Origin: an uncultured Pedosphaera sp.
GTDB lineage: Bacteria; Verrucomicrobiota; Verrucomicrobiia; Limisphaerales; Pedosphaeraceae
Length of the DNA: 64,000 bases
Direction: 5' to 3'
Assembly (NCBI GenBank): GCA_903918755.1
Contig: CAIXFN010000005.1
Span: 1-64,000 of the forward strand
Made by a program: the position numbers and the translations under genes. The notes beneath the pieces are model-generated. The model was not told the origin of the DNA and ran no database searches. It saw nothing but the letters and a program-made list of their open reading frames with translations. Below, one piece after another: positions 756 through 7,965 of the stretch (its first letter is position 1; each line of letters opens with the position of its first letter).

Positions 756-3191
756 ATGAAATATCCCAACCAAATCCTTGCTGCGCTCCTGATTGCGGGC
801 TTCCTGTTTTTTTTCGCCCCCCATTCCCGCGCCCAGTTGCCGGCAAATTTTCCCACGCTTTCCGTGACCACCAATTACGCTCCCGGCGTAGCCGGCGGCT
901 ATGTTTTTCTGGCGGACAATCTCATCCCTGCCAATTTGGGCTACTACCTCATGATCGTGGGCAACGATGCGGCCCCGATCTGGTACCGCAGCCTGACCAA
1001 TGCCGGTTACGATTTCAAAGTCCTCCCCAACGGTTACCTCCATTACGCCCAGCAAATCCAGGCTCTCTCTTATACTGGTGGGGGCGATGTCACGCACGAA
1101 ATTCTCGATGAAAACTACAACTCCGTTGAAACCATCACTGGCGGCAACGGCTACGTCGCCGAGGCCCACGAATTTCAAATGCTGCCCAACGGCAACGTCT
1201 TGCAGATCGGCTACTACCTCAGCGAAGTGGACATGAGCCAGGTCGTTCCGGGAGGCAACCCGGCCGCCCTCGTCTCCGGGGCAGTCATCCAGGAACTGGA
1301 TGCTCAGCGCACGGTGGTCTTTCAATGGCGGCCCTGGGACCACTATCCATTCACCAGCAACTGGGTCAATTCCACAGCGGCGGTCATCTCCAGCTTTCAT
1401 ATCAATCGGGTCATTCAGGACACGGATGGCCATCTCATTATCAGCACCCCCGACTGGGTCAAAAAGGTCAACCGCCAGACCGGGGATATTATGTGGCATT
1501 TGGGCGGCACCGAAAACCAATTCACCTTCGTCGGCGTCAGCCAGGCCCAGGGGGTCAGCGATTTTCGCACCCACGCCATTGAGCGCCTGGCCAACGGTCA
1601 CGTTTTAGTTTACAATAACAGTCTTCTCACTCCGGGCGCCACCTCCACCGTCCATGAATACGCCCTCGACGAAACCAACAAAATCGCCACTCACATCTGG
1701 ACGTATACCCCGAAACCGGCCATTCCGGGACCGTTTCAAGGCGATGCCCAGCGCTTGCCGAATGGCAACACCTTCATCGGCTGGGGCGGTTTGGGCAATC
1801 TCACTCCAGACGCTTGCACGGAAATCTCTGGCACCAACGTCGTGTTCCAGATGAAGTTTAACAATCCCAACGTTACCAGCTATCGCGCCACCCGCTCGCC
1901 TTACCCGCCCCAATCCCAGGACAATCAGGTTGGCATCACCGAGGTCGCCGCCGGCAATACCTATAACTTCGGCGGCACTGGCGTTTCCGTCGGGGTGGTC
2001 ACCGGCGGTGGCGGCTACAACCGCCTCATGGTCACCCGCAGTCCGTATGCCCCGCTCTACCCGCTGTTCCAGGACAAGCCCCCGCGGGTCCTTCCGGTCC
2101 GCGTGCAATTGTCCGAACTGGCCGTCGATGCCCTCACCGTTGACCTTGATTTCGACGTCATCAGCTTCGGCCTCGACAACCCGGCGAGCCTCACCCTGGC
2201 TTACCGGACCACCACCGGCCAGGGCCTCTTCCTCCCCCAAGCCACTCAGTATAACCCGGCCACCGGCAAACTCCGTGTCCACCTGAACCTCGCGGCTCAA
2301 TCCGGCGACCTCGGAGAGTTTATTTTCACCTATCCCGACCTGGCGGACGTAGCTTTCCCGCCCCTGCTGGCCCAAGTGGAGAATTACCGCGGCGTTCAGC
2401 TCACCAATGTGATTGCACCCAAATTGGCCGCCCCGGGCCAGCTGGATAGTGTAAATCAACAACTTCCCATCCTCCTCTCCTGGTCCCCGAAGGGGTTCTC
2501 CCGCTATTTCGAGCTTCAAATCGGCACTGAATCGGCCTTCACGAATCCCCTCGTCCAGATCCCCTACCAGACCGATGCCTTTTACGTCTGGAATGGCGCG
2601 ACCGCGGGCACCTCCTACTTTTACCGGGTGCGCACTTGGAACGACGGGGGTGTGGGTGGCTGGTCGGTCGGCTCTTTCCGTACTACTTCCCCCTTCATCA
2701 CCGCCACGGTCCCGCAAGGCGGCGAATCCTGGCAGCGTGGCCTGAACTATTTTGTGCGCTGGCATGACAACATCCCCGAGAACGTTCGTCTGGAGCTTTA
2801 TCGGGGAGGCACCCTGGTCCGGGCCATCGCCACCAATGCGCCCAGCAGCGGCGCTTTTAACTGGGCGATTCCGTTGGACCTGGCTCCCGGTAACAATTAT
2901 TCCATCCGGATCACCAGCCTAACGAACTCCGCCCTTTTCGCGGTGAGTCCGGCCGTCTTCAGCATTGACCCGCCCACCATTGTCCCACTGTCATTAGCCG
3001 CGAAAGCTGACGGCCGATTCACCTTTAACATCAGCGCCCCTGGTTCCACCCAGGTCGACGTCCTGGCCTCGACGAATTTGTTGACCTGGCAGGATTTGGG
3101 CTTGGTGCCTCTGGTCAATGGGGCCGCCTCTTTCACGGATGACGCCTCGACTAACTATTCCCGCCGTTTTTTCCGGCTCCGCTTGCCTTGA
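756..3191 (+). CDS. Exported arylsulfotransferase (ASST)-like protein with FN3-like region and C-terminal module
   Basis: 811 residues. A clear Sec signal peptide (about residues 1-27, hydrophobic core then AHSRAQ) sends it across the inner membrane. Residues about 40-360 resemble the arylsulfotransferase beta-propeller family (PF05935/PF14269). They carry repeated strand motifs such as VLPNGYLHY, MLPNGNVLQ, RLANGHVLV and RLPNGNTFI, plus conserved His in SSFHINRV and RTHAIERL. Known family members move sulfate between phenolic compounds in the periplasm, but many environmental homologues have unknown substrates. About residues 565-650 look FN3-like, followed by a second beta-sandwich. The last 45 residues form a module with STNL..W and a terminal RRFFRLRLP, shared with two other giant proteins in this window. 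The ATG at 756 is directly followed by the signal peptide. It is a single gene, convergent with the M56 gene. Confidence 0.75.
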   Translation: MKYPNQILAALLIAGFLFFFAPHSRAQLPANFPTLSVTTNYAPGVAGGYVFLADNLIPANLGYYLMIVGNDAAPIWYRSLTNAGYDFKVLPNGYLHYAQQIQALSYTGGGDVTHEILDENYNSVETITGGNGYVAEAHEFQMLPNGNVLQIGYYLSEVDMSQVVPGGNPAALVSGAVIQELDAQRTVVFQWRPWDHYPFTSNWVNSTAAVISSFHINRVIQDTDGHLIISTPDWVKKVNRQTGDIMWHLGGTENQFTFVGVSQAQGVSDFRTHAIERLANGHVLVYNNSLLTPGATSTVHEYALDETNKIATHIWTYTPKPAIPGPFQGDAQRLPNGNTFIGWGGLGNLTPDACTEISGTNVVFQMKFNNPNVTSYRATRSPYPPQSQDNQVGITEVAAGNTYNFGGTGVSVGVVTGGGGYNRLMVTRSPYAPLYPLFQDKPPRVLPVRVQLSELAVDALTVDLDFDVISFGLDNPASLTLAYRTTTGQGLFLPQATQYNPATGKLRVHLNLAAQSGDLGEFIFTYPDLADVAFPPLLAQVENYRGVQLTNVIAPKLAAPGQLDSVNQQLPILLSWSPKGFSRYFELQIGTESAFTNPLVQIPYQTDAFYVWNGATAGTSYFYRVRTWNDGGVGGWSVGSFRTTSPFITATVPQGGESWQRGLNYFVRWHDNIPENVRLELYRGGTLVRAIATNAPSSGAFNWAIPLDLAPGNNYSIRITSLTNSALFAVSPAVFSIDPPTIVPLSLAAKADGRFTFNISAPGSTQVDVLASTNLLTWQDLGLVPLVNGAASFTDDASTNYSRRFFRLRLP

Positions 3192-3256: not shown

Positions 3257-5188
3257 CTACTTGCTAACCGGTAGATTCGGTCCTGCCGGCCGACCCGGAA
3301 ACACCTTGGCCAGCACTTGCGCCAACGATTCCACTTGTGCCTCGGTGAACGGACCGCCGTGCGCACTGTCGAATCCCGGCATGAGCGTCTTGGGTTTTCC
3401 CTCCCGGATGATCCCCCGCCAAAAGGTCAGGTCCGCCGGGTGATTGAGTTGATGGAGATCCGGCACCATGGTGGCCCGCTGCGGGGATTCATGACAAATG
3501 CCGCAGGCCGCCACATACAATTCCTTACCGATTTTACTCCGCGCCGGGGCCACGTGACAGCGGGCGCAATCGCCTTTGAAGATCGCTTGCGGATCGGCGT
3601 TGGCCATTTCCAGATTCTTCAGCCGCATGGCATCCGGCAGCTCCGGAATGCGTGTTTTGACATTCAAGGTCTGCTCCGCGTTGGTCGACACAATGGAAAT
3701 CTGCTTCAATAGCACCCCCGACTTTCCCAGCAAATCCACGGAGACATCAATCTTACCGTCCTCATGGGGTTTCAATACCCAGGGCACCGAGGGCATTTTG
3801 GCCACGGTACACCCGCAGGAGGTCTTGACCGCCGTGATCACCACTTCGGTGTCCTCGGAAATATTCGTCACCGCGAAGAAAAACGTCGCCCGCGCCTGAC
3901 CGTTGGTAACGACCAACTCTTTCTCAATGGCGTCCCATTTCAACAATTCTGTATCGGCAGCCGCGACCGGCCCCGGTCCGGTTCCGGCGGAGGCCCCCGC
4001 ACTGCCCACTCCGGGCTGCTGCGGCGGTGTGGCCGCCGCGGGCGCTGGGGTTTGCTCCGTTTCCACCTTGACCTTCACCGCCGCCTCCGCGGTCGTGGTT
4101 ACCGTCACCGGTTCCGCCACCGCCACCGCGGGCCGCATTTCGACGCACCACAACACCAGCGCCGCGAGCACGCCTCCCACCGCCAGCAAGCGTCCCCGCG
4201 CCAGCCGCCCCGTCGTGTCCCGGCGACCATCCAGCAACCGGCCCACCCGGCGACTGAGCTGGGTCTGCGATAACGAGGCCCCGGGGGCCAATTGCCATCC
4301 CTCCGCCTGGTGCGTTATTTCCGCCAGCCGCGTCAGGCACAAGGCATACCGCTTCACCTGCCGTGTGGTGGAAATCACCAGGTCATCGCACGCAATCTCC
4401 CGCTCAAGGACCATTTGCCGGACGATCCACAAAACCGCCGGATTGCCGCATCCCACCGCCCGCAAAATCTGCAGGAACAGGTTGGTCCAGTCGTCCCGGC
4501 GCCGCAGGTGGCCCAATTCATGCCGACAAACTTGGCTGAATTCCTCCGGGGTAAGCCGCTCGGCGAGATCTAGCGGCACCATCACCGCCGGATGCCCAAA
4601 ACCCACCGCCATCGGGCTCTTCACCTGGGCGGAAGTCAGCAGTTGCGCCGCCCGTCCCGGGCAACTTTCCTCCTGCCACTCCGCAAATCGCTCCGCCAAT
4701 GGCGTCGGCACTTCCCCGGCCGCCCGCTTCAAAGCCCGCAATCGCCAGCCACCCCACGTCAGCCGACCGAGCATCGTCAGCGTGCCCAATCCCCACCCCG
4801 CCACCACCAACACGGGCAACATCCCCTGCTCCACGCGCCACACGAGCGGGAATCTCCCCTGCGGTGAATCGTGCCAGTCCGCGTCCGGATCAGTCCCTCC
4901 GGCGATGAGGAGTCGATGTCCTCCCACCACGGCCGGGAAATTCCCCGTCCGGTGGCTTAGCAGTCCCCGTTCCGCCAGTGCCCGCACCCCCAACACCACC
5001 GGCAGTGCGGTTACCGCCACGAGCGCGATTCCCCAGGCCCAGAAACGCGAGGCCGCATTCATCCGGGGAAACGCGCGCAATATCCCCCAGATCAGCAAGC
5101 CCGCCAAGCAGCCCTGCCAGGCGCTGTTCACCATCGCTTCCGTAAGCGCCGCCGCCCCCGCATAAAGAGGTTCGATCAGTTTTGTCAT
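3257..5188 (-). CDS. BlaR1-type M56 membrane metallopeptidase fused to DUF1573 and a CxxCH cytochrome tail
   Basis: 643 residues. The N-terminal third has several hydrophobic segments (about 20-40, 48-68, 122-142) and the zinc-protease motif HELGH at residues 223-227, followed by the downstream Glu region EREIACDD (about 262-269). This is the layout of BlaR1/MecR1 M56 sensor peptidases. A further membrane segment sits near 334-350. After a Pro/Ala linker (about 380-412), residues about 413-515 match DUF1573 with its SCGCT motif (457-461). The tail has two haem-binding motifs, CARCH (541-545) and CGICH (562-566), and a Met in TLMPGF that could be the axial ligand. In known systems the sensor domain outside the membrane triggers cleavage of the BlaI repressor. 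Here the usual penicillin-binding domain is absent and a redox/haem domain takes its place. It overlaps the BlaI gene by 4 bases (ATGA), so the two are translationally coupled. Confidence 0.85.
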   Translation of the reverse strand: MTKLIEPLYAGAAALTEAMVNSAWQGCLAGLLIWGILRAFPRMNAASRFWAWGIALVAVTALPVVLGVRALAERGLLSHRTGNFPAVVGGHRLLIAGGTDPDADWHDSPQGRFPLVWRVEQGMLPVLVVAGWGLGTLTMLGRLTWGGWRLRALKRAAGEVPTPLAERFAEWQEESCPGRAAQLLTSAQVKSPMAVGFGHPAVMVPLDLAERLTPEEFSQVCRHELGHLRRRDDWTNLFLQILRAVGCGNPAVLWIVRQMVLEREIACDDLVISTTRQVKRYALCLTRLAEITHQAEGWQLAPGASLSQTQLSRRVGRLLDGRRDTTGRLARGRLLAVGGVLAALVLWCVEMRPAVAVAEPVTVTTTAEAAVKVKVETEQTPAPAAATPPQQPGVGSAGASAGTGPGPVAAADTELLKWDAIEKELVVTNGQARATFFFAVTNISEDTEVVITAVKTSCGCTVAKMPSVPWVLKPHEDGKIDVSVDLLGKSGVLLKQISIVSTNAEQTLNVKTRIPELPDAMRLKNLEMANADPQAIFKGDCARCHVAPARSKIGKELYVAACGICHESPQRATMVPDLHQLNHPADLTFWRGIIREGKPKTLMPGFDSAHGGPFTEAQVESLAQVLAKVFPGRPAGPNLPVSK

Positions 5189-5583
5189 GATTGGTTTTCT
5201 CCGGTTTCTTCGATGAGTTTTTTGAGTCGTTTTAATTCCGCATGGTCGACCTGCTCCCGCTCCAGCATGTTCAACATCAATAATTCCGGCGAATCATCAA
5301 AGAACCGGCTCACCACATAACGCACGGCCTTCGCCCGCGCCTCCGCCCGGTTCACCACCGGTTCATACACGAACGCCCGCCCTTCTTTCTCATGCCGGAG
5401 GTATCCCTTTTTCTCCAGGATCCGCAGTACCGTCAGCACCGTGGTATAGGCGAGGTCCGGCCCCTGCCCCGCGGCCTCCGCCGCCTCTGCCACTTCCCCC
5501 ACGGTCGCCCGCCCCTTCTTCCACAGGATTTCCATGAGGCGCAGTTCCGCTTCGGTCAAATTGGGTGATGGTTTTCTCGACAT
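5185..5583 (-). CDS. BlaI/MecI/CopY-family transcriptional repressor
   Basis: 132 residues, the usual length for the family. The N-terminal winged helix starts with LTEAELRLMEILWKKG and has the recognition region YTTVLTVLRILEKKGYL, typical of BlaI/MecI. The C-terminal half (about 80-125) is the dimerisation and cleavage region. The repressor is expected to bind a palindromic operator as a dimer and to be removed by proteolysis when the partner M56 peptidase is activated. It is the first gene of a two-gene operon, with its stop overlapping the start of the M56 gene. An inverted repeat 25 to 44 bases upstream of its start is a good candidate for its own operator, which would give autoregulation. 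Confidence 0.92.
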   Translation of the reverse strand: MSRKPSPNLTEAELRLMEILWKKGRATVGEVAEAAEAAGQGPDLAYTTVLTVLRILEKKGYLRHEKEGRAFVYEPVVNRAEARAKAVRYVVSRFFDDSPELLMLNMLEREQVDHAELKRLKKLIEETGENQS

Positions 5584-5607: not shown

Positions 5608-5627
5608 ATTACTATTTCCGTAGTAAT
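5608..5627. promoter_or_regulatory. Candidate BlaI operator (inverted repeat)
   Basis: Perfect 7-bp inverted repeat ATTACTA-tttccg-TAGTAAT just upstream of the BlaI-family start. TACTA/TAGTA half-sites resemble the TAC..GTA core of operators bound by this repressor family. A TTGACA hexamer on the minus strand at 5661-5666 could be the -35 element, but I see no good -10 at the right spacing, so the promoter call is weak. The palindrome is directly seen; its role is inferred from position. Confidence 0.55.
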
Positions 5628-5727
5628 TACAGAGACACTTTTCCTCCGTTTTATCAAAACTGTCAACTACATATTTAATAATTCGCGAAAAAATGAATTT
5701 GCCCCCCCAAGGCACTCTCCGTCGCGC

Positions 5728-6750
5728 TTAATCCATGACCGGTTTCCAGGTTGGATCCGGATCGTAAACGGACATCCCGCGGGCGATGGCATCCGTCCTG
5801 GAACCCAGGTTCTTCTGATACACTTTGCCTCGCTGGTTGATGATGAAGGTCATGATGCCCGTGTTGCCCCATTCCGCGGGCCAGGCCACCAAAGCGAACC
5901 CGGCGATCATATGCCCGTTGATGATGTAGTGGTACTTCCCGCCCGGAGCGTGGCTGCCTTGCTGGGTCAGAATTCGGAAATAATAACCATGATACGGCGT
6001 TGTCTCCCCCTCGGTCAGGATTTTCGTCCCTTTCCGGTAACCTTCCGCATGCGCGCCCGCCACGAGCGGCCCCAGCGGACTGCGTTCCGGGTTCGTGCCC
6101 GCAGGCCAGTAAAGCCCATCCTGCTTGCCCGGCGTGCTGCGCAGATGCTGGGCATATTCCAGCACCTCCTCGCTGCCATGAAACTGACTGGCATATTCCC
6201 TTTGCGCCGCGGCATAAGCCCGCACCACGCCGATCGCCCCCAACTCATTTTCGCCAATCCGGCGATTCAAAATCTCTTCGCGCCCCGCATCGGTATCAAA
6301 AAACCATTGGCCGCCATGCGGCGCCAGAGGAATCGGAAACGGCCACCCATCCGCCCCCAATTCCAGCACCATCCGTCCATCTTTTCCCTGGATCAATTCG
6401 ACTTTGTTCGTCAGTCGTCGCACAAAGAGGGCAAAATTGTTGGAAGATTGAATGACATCCGGGTTTATCAATTCCCGGCCGGACGGTCCGAAAATGAAGT
6501 GCAAGGCATTCGTGTCATGCGTCCGGGCGGCGGCGACCAACGCGTCCGCTGCGGCTTGCGGGGTCTTGAATAGCTGCTCCCCGGCGGCCCCAACTTTCGG
6601 GCTTCCGCACATCAGCAATCCCACGACCAGCAAAATCCCGCCCCGCATTCCCCGCCCCGCACCTGCGGCCGCCGTCGGCTGTCCGGACCGCCGACTTTGG
6701 TAAAACTCGCAAAAGGTTTGTTTCATCGCCTGTTCTGGTTTCATCTTCAA
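5728..6750 (-). CDS. DUF2950 family exported protein
   Basis: 340 residues from the ATG at 6750. An internal ATG at 6648 would start right before a hydrophobic signal sequence (MRGGILLVVGLLMCG), so the true start may be there. The rest matches DUF2950: an opening FKTPQAAADALVAAA, the central WFFDTDAGREEILNRRIGENELGAI, and the C-terminal GYYFRILTQQG...GGKYHYIING...WPAEWGNTGIMTFIIN. The family is widespread in Gram-negative bacteria and of unknown function. It is commonly encoded next to DUF3300, as here: the DUF3300 stop lies 15 bases upstream and the two genes are probably co-transcribed. An envelope role is likely but not shown. Confidence 0.88.
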   Translation of the reverse strand: MKMKPEQAMKQTFCEFYQSRRSGQPTAAAGAGRGMRGGILLVVGLLMCGSPKVGAAGEQLFKTPQAAADALVAAARTHDTNALHFIFGPSGRELINPDVIQSSNNFALFVRRLTNKVELIQGKDGRMVLELGADGWPFPIPLAPHGGQWFFDTDAGREEILNRRIGENELGAIGVVRAYAAAQREYASQFHGSEEVLEYAQHLRSTPGKQDGLYWPAGTNPERSPLGPLVAGAHAEGYRKGTKILTEGETTPYHGYYFRILTQQGSHAPGGKYHYIINGHMIAGFALVAWPAEWGNTGIMTFIINQRGKVYQKNLGSRTDAIARGMSVYDPDPTWKPVMD

Positions 6751-6765
6751 ATTGCCTCACCCACG

Positions 6766-7839
6766 TTAGGGTTGCCGCCCCCGTCCGCCACCTCCGCCTC
6801 CACCGCCACCTGCCGGTCGGGGCGGTGGGGGGGCCGCATGCGCCGGGGCGGCCGGCGTCGGCCGGGCGACCTGCCGACTGGCTTGCCCCCGGGCACTGGT
6901 TTGCCGGGCCTCGTGCGCGGTCTGGTTGCCACCGATGCCACCGCCCACGGGACCGCGGGGCTGGGAATGAATTACCACGGGTGGCGAGCCCGGCCTTGCC
7001 CCGGGTCGAGTTTCCTGGCCATGGGGTAACCCCGCCGGAGCCCAACCCCGATCCAAATGGCCCGGGGCCACTCCTACCGAATGCCCTTTGGGCTGCCAGA
7101 CGCCCGCCGTGCGCACGGCCTCCGGCGAACGGCGACTCGGTGCTTGCGCCCACCAACCCGCCGGGCGGGGATGGTCCCGACTCCAGACGATCACCCGGTG
7201 ATTGTGCCAGTCAAAATCATGGTCCAACCACCGGCCGGTTCGATATCCCGGCATGAAAGTGAGAAACCGTTGACCGTAGGCGCGCTGATAAAAAATAATT
7301 CCCGGATCGTAAACCGGCACAAACAGCAGGCCCGGATCCACCGGCTGGATCTCCACCAACCCTTCATCAATGACCACCCGGGCTTCCGGAGTGGTTTGCA
7401 AATTCCCCAACCCCACCGCCTGCGCCCGCAAACTTTGGATCGCCTGCATGACATCATCCGGTTGCGCCAGAAACGCCTGCCCCACGGCCGTCGTCCACGC
7501 CAGATTGTCATCCAGATATTTCAGCACCGCCGGATAACGCGCCAGCGCCTGCACACTGGCATCCCAGGGTTGCTGGTCAATCAGGTTGGGATCCCCGTTC
7601 GCGGCGAGATAGCGATCCGCCACCACAATCTCCTCGGGAAACGTTGCCGCCGGCAGCAACTCCGAAATCAGCGGGTCCGGGTAAATGGCGATGGGCGCCA
7701 GCATTTGGCTTAATTCCTCCGGCGTGCGCAACGGATACTCCGGCGGCCCGGGCGGCGGGGTGGGATCCTGTGCCAGCGCCGGCAGGGCTAAAGCCAGGGA
7801 AAGGACCATCCGGCTCAAGAAAACAAATAGCGGCTTCAT
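6766..7839 (-). CDS. DUF3300 family exported protein
   Basis: 357 residues from the ATG at 7839. An upstream extension of the frame is rejected because this ATG is followed at once by a signal peptide (MKPLFVFLSRMVLSLALALPALAQ). Residues about 35-200 carry the DUF3300 hallmarks: LRTPEELSQMLAPIAIYPDPLISELLPAATFP, then ALARYPAVLKYLDDNLAWTTAVGQAFLAQPDDVM, and later VPVYDPGIIFY. The C-terminal 130 residues are low-complexity, rich in Pro, Arg, Gln and Ala, ending in a run of eight glycines. Function is unknown; it is probably periplasmic or outer-membrane associated. It heads the operon with DUF2950 and is divergent from the sugar kinase at 7966, so the 126-base gap should hold both promoters. 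Confidence 0.88.
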   Translation of the reverse strand: MKPLFVFLSRMVLSLALALPALAQDPTPPPGPPEYPLRTPEELSQMLAPIAIYPDPLISELLPAATFPEEIVVADRYLAANGDPNLIDQQPWDASVQALARYPAVLKYLDDNLAWTTAVGQAFLAQPDDVMQAIQSLRAQAVGLGNLQTTPEARVVIDEGLVEIQPVDPGLLFVPVYDPGIIFYQRAYGQRFLTFMPGYRTGRWLDHDFDWHNHRVIVWSRDHPRPAGWWAQAPSRRSPEAVRTAGVWQPKGHSVGVAPGHLDRGWAPAGLPHGQETRPGARPGSPPVVIHSQPRGPVGGGIGGNQTAHEARQTSARGQASRQVARPTPAAPAHAAPPPPRPAGGGGGGGGGRGRQP

Positions 7840-7965
7840 CCATCTACAATGTGGCACAGTTTCGCCCACCGGTCGAATCCGGGATTTCCCCCATTCCCAC
7901 CCGCTCTCGGCCAGGGTCGCGTCGGATTTGACAGTTCCCCGATTTTTTTGTCTGATTCTCTCACT

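Follow-up and report, generated by a model that had tools for sequence, protein, structure and literature searches.

Which signal does a BlaI-type repressor system convey when its membrane protease carries a cytochrome in the place of a penicillin sensor? The question is raised by a gene pair of an uncultured Pedosphaera sp. at positions 3257-5583 of the window, the 64,000-nucleotide stretch of contig CAIXFN010000005.1 that was analysed. The signals read by BlaR1-like proteases outside antibiotic resistance are largely unknown. The outer domain found here has a readable chemistry (two predicted haems and a CGC pair), so that its report to BlaI is amenable to experiment.

Both genes lie on the minus strand. 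The repressor gene (5185..5583) encodes a 132-aa protein of the BlaI/CopY type (PF03965, Penicillinase_R, E 4.9e-32) and shares four bases, ATGA, with the M56 gene (3257..5188), an overlap that indicates translational coupling. The M56 gene is a single uninterrupted open frame of 643 aa. The earlier note had claimed both the coupled repressor and a peptidase extended by DUF1573 and two CxxCH motifs, and HELGH, CGC, CARCH and CGICH proved to be in the places it gave; the Pfam search that it recommended matched M56, DUF1573 and cytochrome c, and all Pfam domain calls on the repressor and the fusion protein are above the curated cut-offs. The fusion protein begins with a Peptidase_M56 domain (residues 21-315, 4244..5128; PF05569, E 3.8e-24), whose zinc/catalytic motif HELGH (residues 223-227, 4508..4522) aligns with the BlaR1 HExxH region of 8exs. 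There follow the last transmembrane helix on the M56 side (residues 333-351, 4136..4192; hydropathy peak 1.89, helix 332-349 in the structure model), a Pro/Ala/Thr-rich linker (residues 352-414, 3947..4135; pLDDT <50 for residues 345-406), and a DUF1573 beta-sandwich of ASH/PapD-like fold (residues 429-510, 3659..3904; PF07610, E 1.1e-11) with the thiol motif CGC (C458-C460, 3809..3817), both cysteines of which are invariant in a 37-row alignment of tails. The cytochrome half, which resembles CcoP and cytochrome c6 in profile comparison, contains the cytochrome c domain (residues 552-622, 3323..3535; PF13442, Cytochrome_CBB3, E 2.6e-8). Cys and His of its two haem motifs, CARCH (541-545, 3554..3568) and CGICH (562-566, 3491..3505), are invariant across the tail family, as are Met and Pro of LMPGF, in which Met603 (3380..3382) is the probable axial haem ligand by analogy with class I cytochromes c. 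Up to E 1, Pfam matched no transpeptidase or class D (beta-lactam-binding) domain in the fusion protein, in agreement with the claim that its C terminus holds no beta-lactam sensor.

The attachment of c-type haem is periplasmic, and cytochrome c assembly proteins are encoded in the same genome. Hydropathy analysis of the fusion protein yields four main membrane segments (19-37, 54-72, 122-140, and 333-351) and a weaker extra peak within the peptidase part. In the predicted structure the long helices match the hydropathy segments, residues 345-406 of the linker region are disordered, and the tail is well ordered, folding on its own with a mean pLDDT of 91.9; the relative placement of M56 and tail is of low confidence (pTM 0.38). 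The four hydrophobic helices, the last at 333-351, together with the BlaR1 arrangement place the tail outside the cytoplasm. We infer its periplasmic location from hydropathy, haem chemistry, homologues bearing signal peptides, and the arrangement of BlaR1, and the transmembrane layout presumed previously is thereby supported by both hydropathy and the model helices. In BlaR1 the peptidase is cytoplasmic and the C-terminus is outside, where the outer domain acts as the sensor and passes the signal on to the peptidase (PMC7593790).

With BlaI-BlaR1 and MecI-MecR1 of staphylococci and Bacillus licheniformis, the pair shares the adjacent BlaI-type repressor, the membrane HExxH peptidase of the M56 family, an outer C-terminal domain, and palindromic operators at its own promoter. 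It differs in the DUF1573-cytochrome that replaces the penicillin-binding/class D domain and in the operator, ACTA-N6-TAGT here versus the TACA-N2-TGTA type of the two classical systems. Against the BlaR1 equivalog NF000326, the fusion protein scores 76.8 bits, the cut-off being 400. Since the defining sensor domain is missing and the protein stays far below the curated cut-off, the fusion is not a BlaR1 or MecR1 in the strict sense; by analogy it would work like them in outline. Another BlaI/BlaR1-type pair that serves electron-transfer metabolism, not antibiotic resistance, is PetR/PetP, which exerts copper control of the plastocyanin/cytochrome c6 swap in Synechocystis (PMC7896320; as a copper precedent also in PMC10141476). 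It acts on the separate targets petE and petJ, whereas here the cytochrome sits in the protease itself and the motif searches revealed no target elsewhere.

At 15 public-genome loci the tail homologues are secreted stand-alone DUF1573-dihaem cytochromes, and all tail matches in seven further genomes from the family stand alone as well. They are homologous to the fused tail over its whole length (40-59% identity), with CGC, two CxxCH and Met-Pro at homologous positions, and differ in being separate proteins of ~260-420 aa that start with signal-peptide-like stretches; the fused tail is not a separate secreted protein, whereas the cytochrome stands alone in all other cases examined. The tail family has a match in at least 228 of the 320 genomes of the order (about 70%), and such DUF1573-dihaem cytochromes (for example at loci L022, L023, and L006) usually occur as two paralogues per genome in the window's family. 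The genome studied carries three copies: one is fused, the other two stand alone and are 59% and 46% identical to it, and no stand-alone homologue exceeds 57-59% identity to the fused tail. Selenoproteins, which are for the most part redox proteins, include DUF1573 homologues that have selenocysteine in the CGC position (PMC9312934, PMC2398784), and this supports a redox role of the CGC motif.

When conserved columns are defined as those kept in at least 90% of the other tails, the fused tail keeps 38 of 40, including CGC, both CxxCH motifs and Met603. In a tree of 40 tails it groups, with support 99/93, as sister to a stand-alone copy of its own genome together with a copy from a congener; its branch measures 0.44, versus 0.19-0.22 for the nearest stand-alone relatives. 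By its sequence, the fused tail is a divergent paralogue of the stand-alone cytochromes. Its position in the tree and the 38 columns kept indicate that it probably arose as a copy of a cytochrome present in its own lineage and then stayed intact, and part of the constraint acting on it may predate the fusion. No informative conserved neighbours of the stand-alone cytochrome were found, the clusters being mostly antisense shadow frames.

A second M56-cytochrome fusion was found neither in ~320 genomes of the order, among the matches listed, nor in 388 genomes of the phylum, in which the best three candidates per genome were scored. Eleven long open frames of tail homologues (461-895 aa) were considered as possible fusions; none has the M56 HExxH, and all are open frames extending upstream of a stand-alone secreted gene. 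The cytochrome of locus L017, with a match starting at residue 281, was considered likewise and is stand-alone too. A literature search, thin on subscription journals, yielded no description of an M56-cytochrome fusion. The earlier note had made its reading depend on homologues that keep the tail with the peptidase; in all other genomes surveyed the tail is never kept so and is normally a separate secreted protein. As the fusion is private to one genome, its conservation drops out as evidence for function, and selection on the combination of M56 and tail cannot be shown. The gene itself is left standing, with its haem, thiol and peptidase motifs all kept: this is a genuine fusion, to all appearances intact, that is known from one genome and may have rare counterparts elsewhere.

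After the last helix, verrucomicrobial M56 proteins carry outer domains that include coiled coil (judged by eye), OmpA/ExbD/SLBB, secretin, Kelch, LamG, and carboxypeptidase-regulatory domains; that of the closest M56 relative (43% over residues 117-359) is of the OmpA/ExbD/SLBB kind. These proteins share the membrane/peptidase part with the fusion and, within the same clade, also the adjacent blaI and the operator layout, whereas their outer domains are unrelated, CxxCH and CGC being absent from all 47 other distinct M56 frames compared. The cytochrome tail thus represents one of many domain swaps in M56 proteins, and the differing outer domains, as expected of an exchangeable module, suggest that the outer part behaves as one. 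The many unrelated outer domains on blaI-adjacent M56 proteins, combined in this clade with a constant two-operator promoter, suggest that M56-BlaI serves in Verrucomicrobiota as a general swap-in sensor/effector platform; no paper on such a platform was found. Examples of M56 proteins with secretin, Kelch, LamG, carboxypeptidase-regulatory or OmpA-ExbD-SLBB domains, nearly all beside blaI, are seen at loci L080, L086, L087, L091, L092, L093, L094, L097, and L099.

Between blaI and the next gene upstream lies the palindrome AATTACTACGGAAATAGTAATT, with 8-base arms and a spacer of 6. Motif search and promoter comparison delimit the core of this 22-base element as ACTA-N6-TAGT (operator 2, 5611..5624). 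A perfect ACTA-N6-TAGT occurs within 100 bases in 21 of 23 distinct blaI promoters (the window's own and 22 of related blaI-M56 genes) versus 0.075 expected from shuffles, which bears out the palindromic operator proposed just upstream of the pair and places the pair with the presumably autoregulated BlaI-M56 pairs that share an operator at their blaI promoters. Most of the 22 relatives have one copy over a -35-like TTGAC and a second, weaker copy ~45-50 bases on. The same two-site layout is present in the window, with a spacing of 55 bases and a degenerate first copy (operator 1, ATTA-N6-TAGT, 5666..5679) that occupies the position of the relatives' perfect operator and runs into a -35-like TTGACA (5661-5666); no good -10 box was seen at this blaI promoter.

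The strict motif WWACTA-N6-TAGTWW occurs once in the genome, at this blaI promoter, and the loose ACTA-N6-TAGT has six sites in 7.2 Mb, two of which are at blaI-M56 promoters (this one and that of a pair on contig C28). The other four were considered as a regulon and rejected, since none of them is at a blaI-M56 gene and they fall within or next to reading frames of unrelated genes. Neither motif was found genome-wide at other electron-carrier genes, a search by which weaker sites would be missed. Because ACTA-N6-TAGT is present at the pair's own promoter and the remaining sites lie away from blaI-M56 genes, the pair probably controls its own expression and has a very small regulon, apart from any weaker target sites that would escape the motif search. 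One of the four loose sites, ACTACTTTGGTAGT at position 1501-1514 of locus L133 (G000:C79), is near glycoside-hydrolase-like and rhamnose-mutarotase-like frames and may serve a different regulator of the BlaI type. Upstream of blaI at locus L093 (G004:C47), a 38-base inverted repeat, TGCTACACTTGTAGCA-N6-TGCTACAAGTGTAGCA, looks like two stacked operators of a different BlaI class.

In the mechanism that we propose, BlaI would occupy the two operators over its own promoter, and the cytoplasm-facing M56 domain, once activated, would cleave or inactivate it. The outer part would be a captured copy of the stand-alone DUF1573-dihaem cytochrome widespread in the order; the haem loading or redox status of this captured copy, or the thiol state of CGC, would alter how the last membrane helix is contacted and thereby tune the peptidase, as beta-lactam acylation does in BlaR1. 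We infer that BlaI is the substrate of M56, that the tail binds haem, that the pair is autoregulated, and that the outer part senses. An autoregulated BlaI-M56 loop, with the periplasmic haem/thiol module as its most likely input, has in our judgement an even chance of being correct. It is a more tentative proposal, possible rather than probable, that the dihaem cytochrome/thiol module is the sensor and that periplasmic redox or haem status reaches the DNA via regulated cleavage of the repressor; if true, the switch would be of the BlaR1 type with haem as its sensor, an arrangement described in none of the papers searched. Redox sensing by the fusion is plausible and unproven. Against it speak the tail family, whose members are of the electron-carrier kind and are not known to sense, and the strict operator, which is present at the pair's own promoter only and so points to no target gene in redox or respiratory metabolism; further such points are the single genome, the pTM of 0.38, the degenerate operator 1, and the lack of a good -10 box. 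Of the redox-, haem- or respiration-responsive proteolytic switch proposed in the earlier note, the BlaI/M56 pair, the non-beta-lactam outer domain, the operator, and the periplasmic topology hold, and the weak side is a fusion private to this genome.

The main rival of the sensor reading is that the tail is a product: M56 would anchor a tethered cytochrome, its amount set by the BlaI loop, and the signal would enter elsewhere, in the membrane part or at a zinc or copper site. The confinement of the strict operator to the pair's promoter would fit, as the regulated output may then be the protein itself, and so would the effector- or scaffold-like outer domains of relatives (secretin, OmpA/ExbD/SLBB, Kelch, LamG) and a tail that retains all an electron carrier needs. 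However, two stand-alone copies are already in the genome and the outer domain is the sensor in BlaR1/MecR1, and we regard this explanation as rather doubtful. It is unlikely that the fusion is a recent accident, with the tail tolerated as inert cargo and M56 working via its other parts: the occurrence in one genome and the longer branch would agree with this, but 38 of 40 conserved columns and both haem motifs are intact despite that branch.

A copper switch like PetR/PetP, with a metal at the outer CGC or in the membrane, not haem, as the signal, appears very improbable. The best NCBIfam match of the repressor is CopY/TcrY (61.5 bits, below the cut-off of 121.95), PetP-PetR provides a precedent (PMC7896320, PMC10141476), and CGC should be able to bind metal; yet CGC is general to the whole DUF1573 tail family, and the adjacent genes (DUF2950/DUF3300 and ASST-like) are not copper genes. 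That an assembly or frame artefact has joined two genes is hardly credible, even with a single genome and a draft assembly of 118 contigs. A frame error hiding two separate genes, raised beforehand as a danger to the reading, was looked for and the frame proved uninterrupted; the join is in frame directly after the last helix, with a linker, and GC3 is even across it (0.78 / 0.76 / 0.72), giving no sign of a frame error or chimaeric join. The locus lies inside a 170-kb contig, and a mis-joined copy can be dismissed because the fused tail differs from both stand-alone copies of the genome.

Directly upstream of the pair, a DUF2950 gene (5728-6750) and a DUF3300 gene (~6766-7872) lie side by side on the minus strand. 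The place beside DUF2950 was considered as the ancestral location of the pair and rejected, since the DUF2950 genes of relatives have no blaI-M56 within ~1.5 kb on either side; for this reason, the blaI-M56 pair is probably a lineage-specific arrival beside DUF2950/DUF3300. Convergent to the fusion gene, the plus strand encodes at 756-3191 a secreted ASST-like arylsulfotransferase with Kre9/KNH and fn3-like domains.
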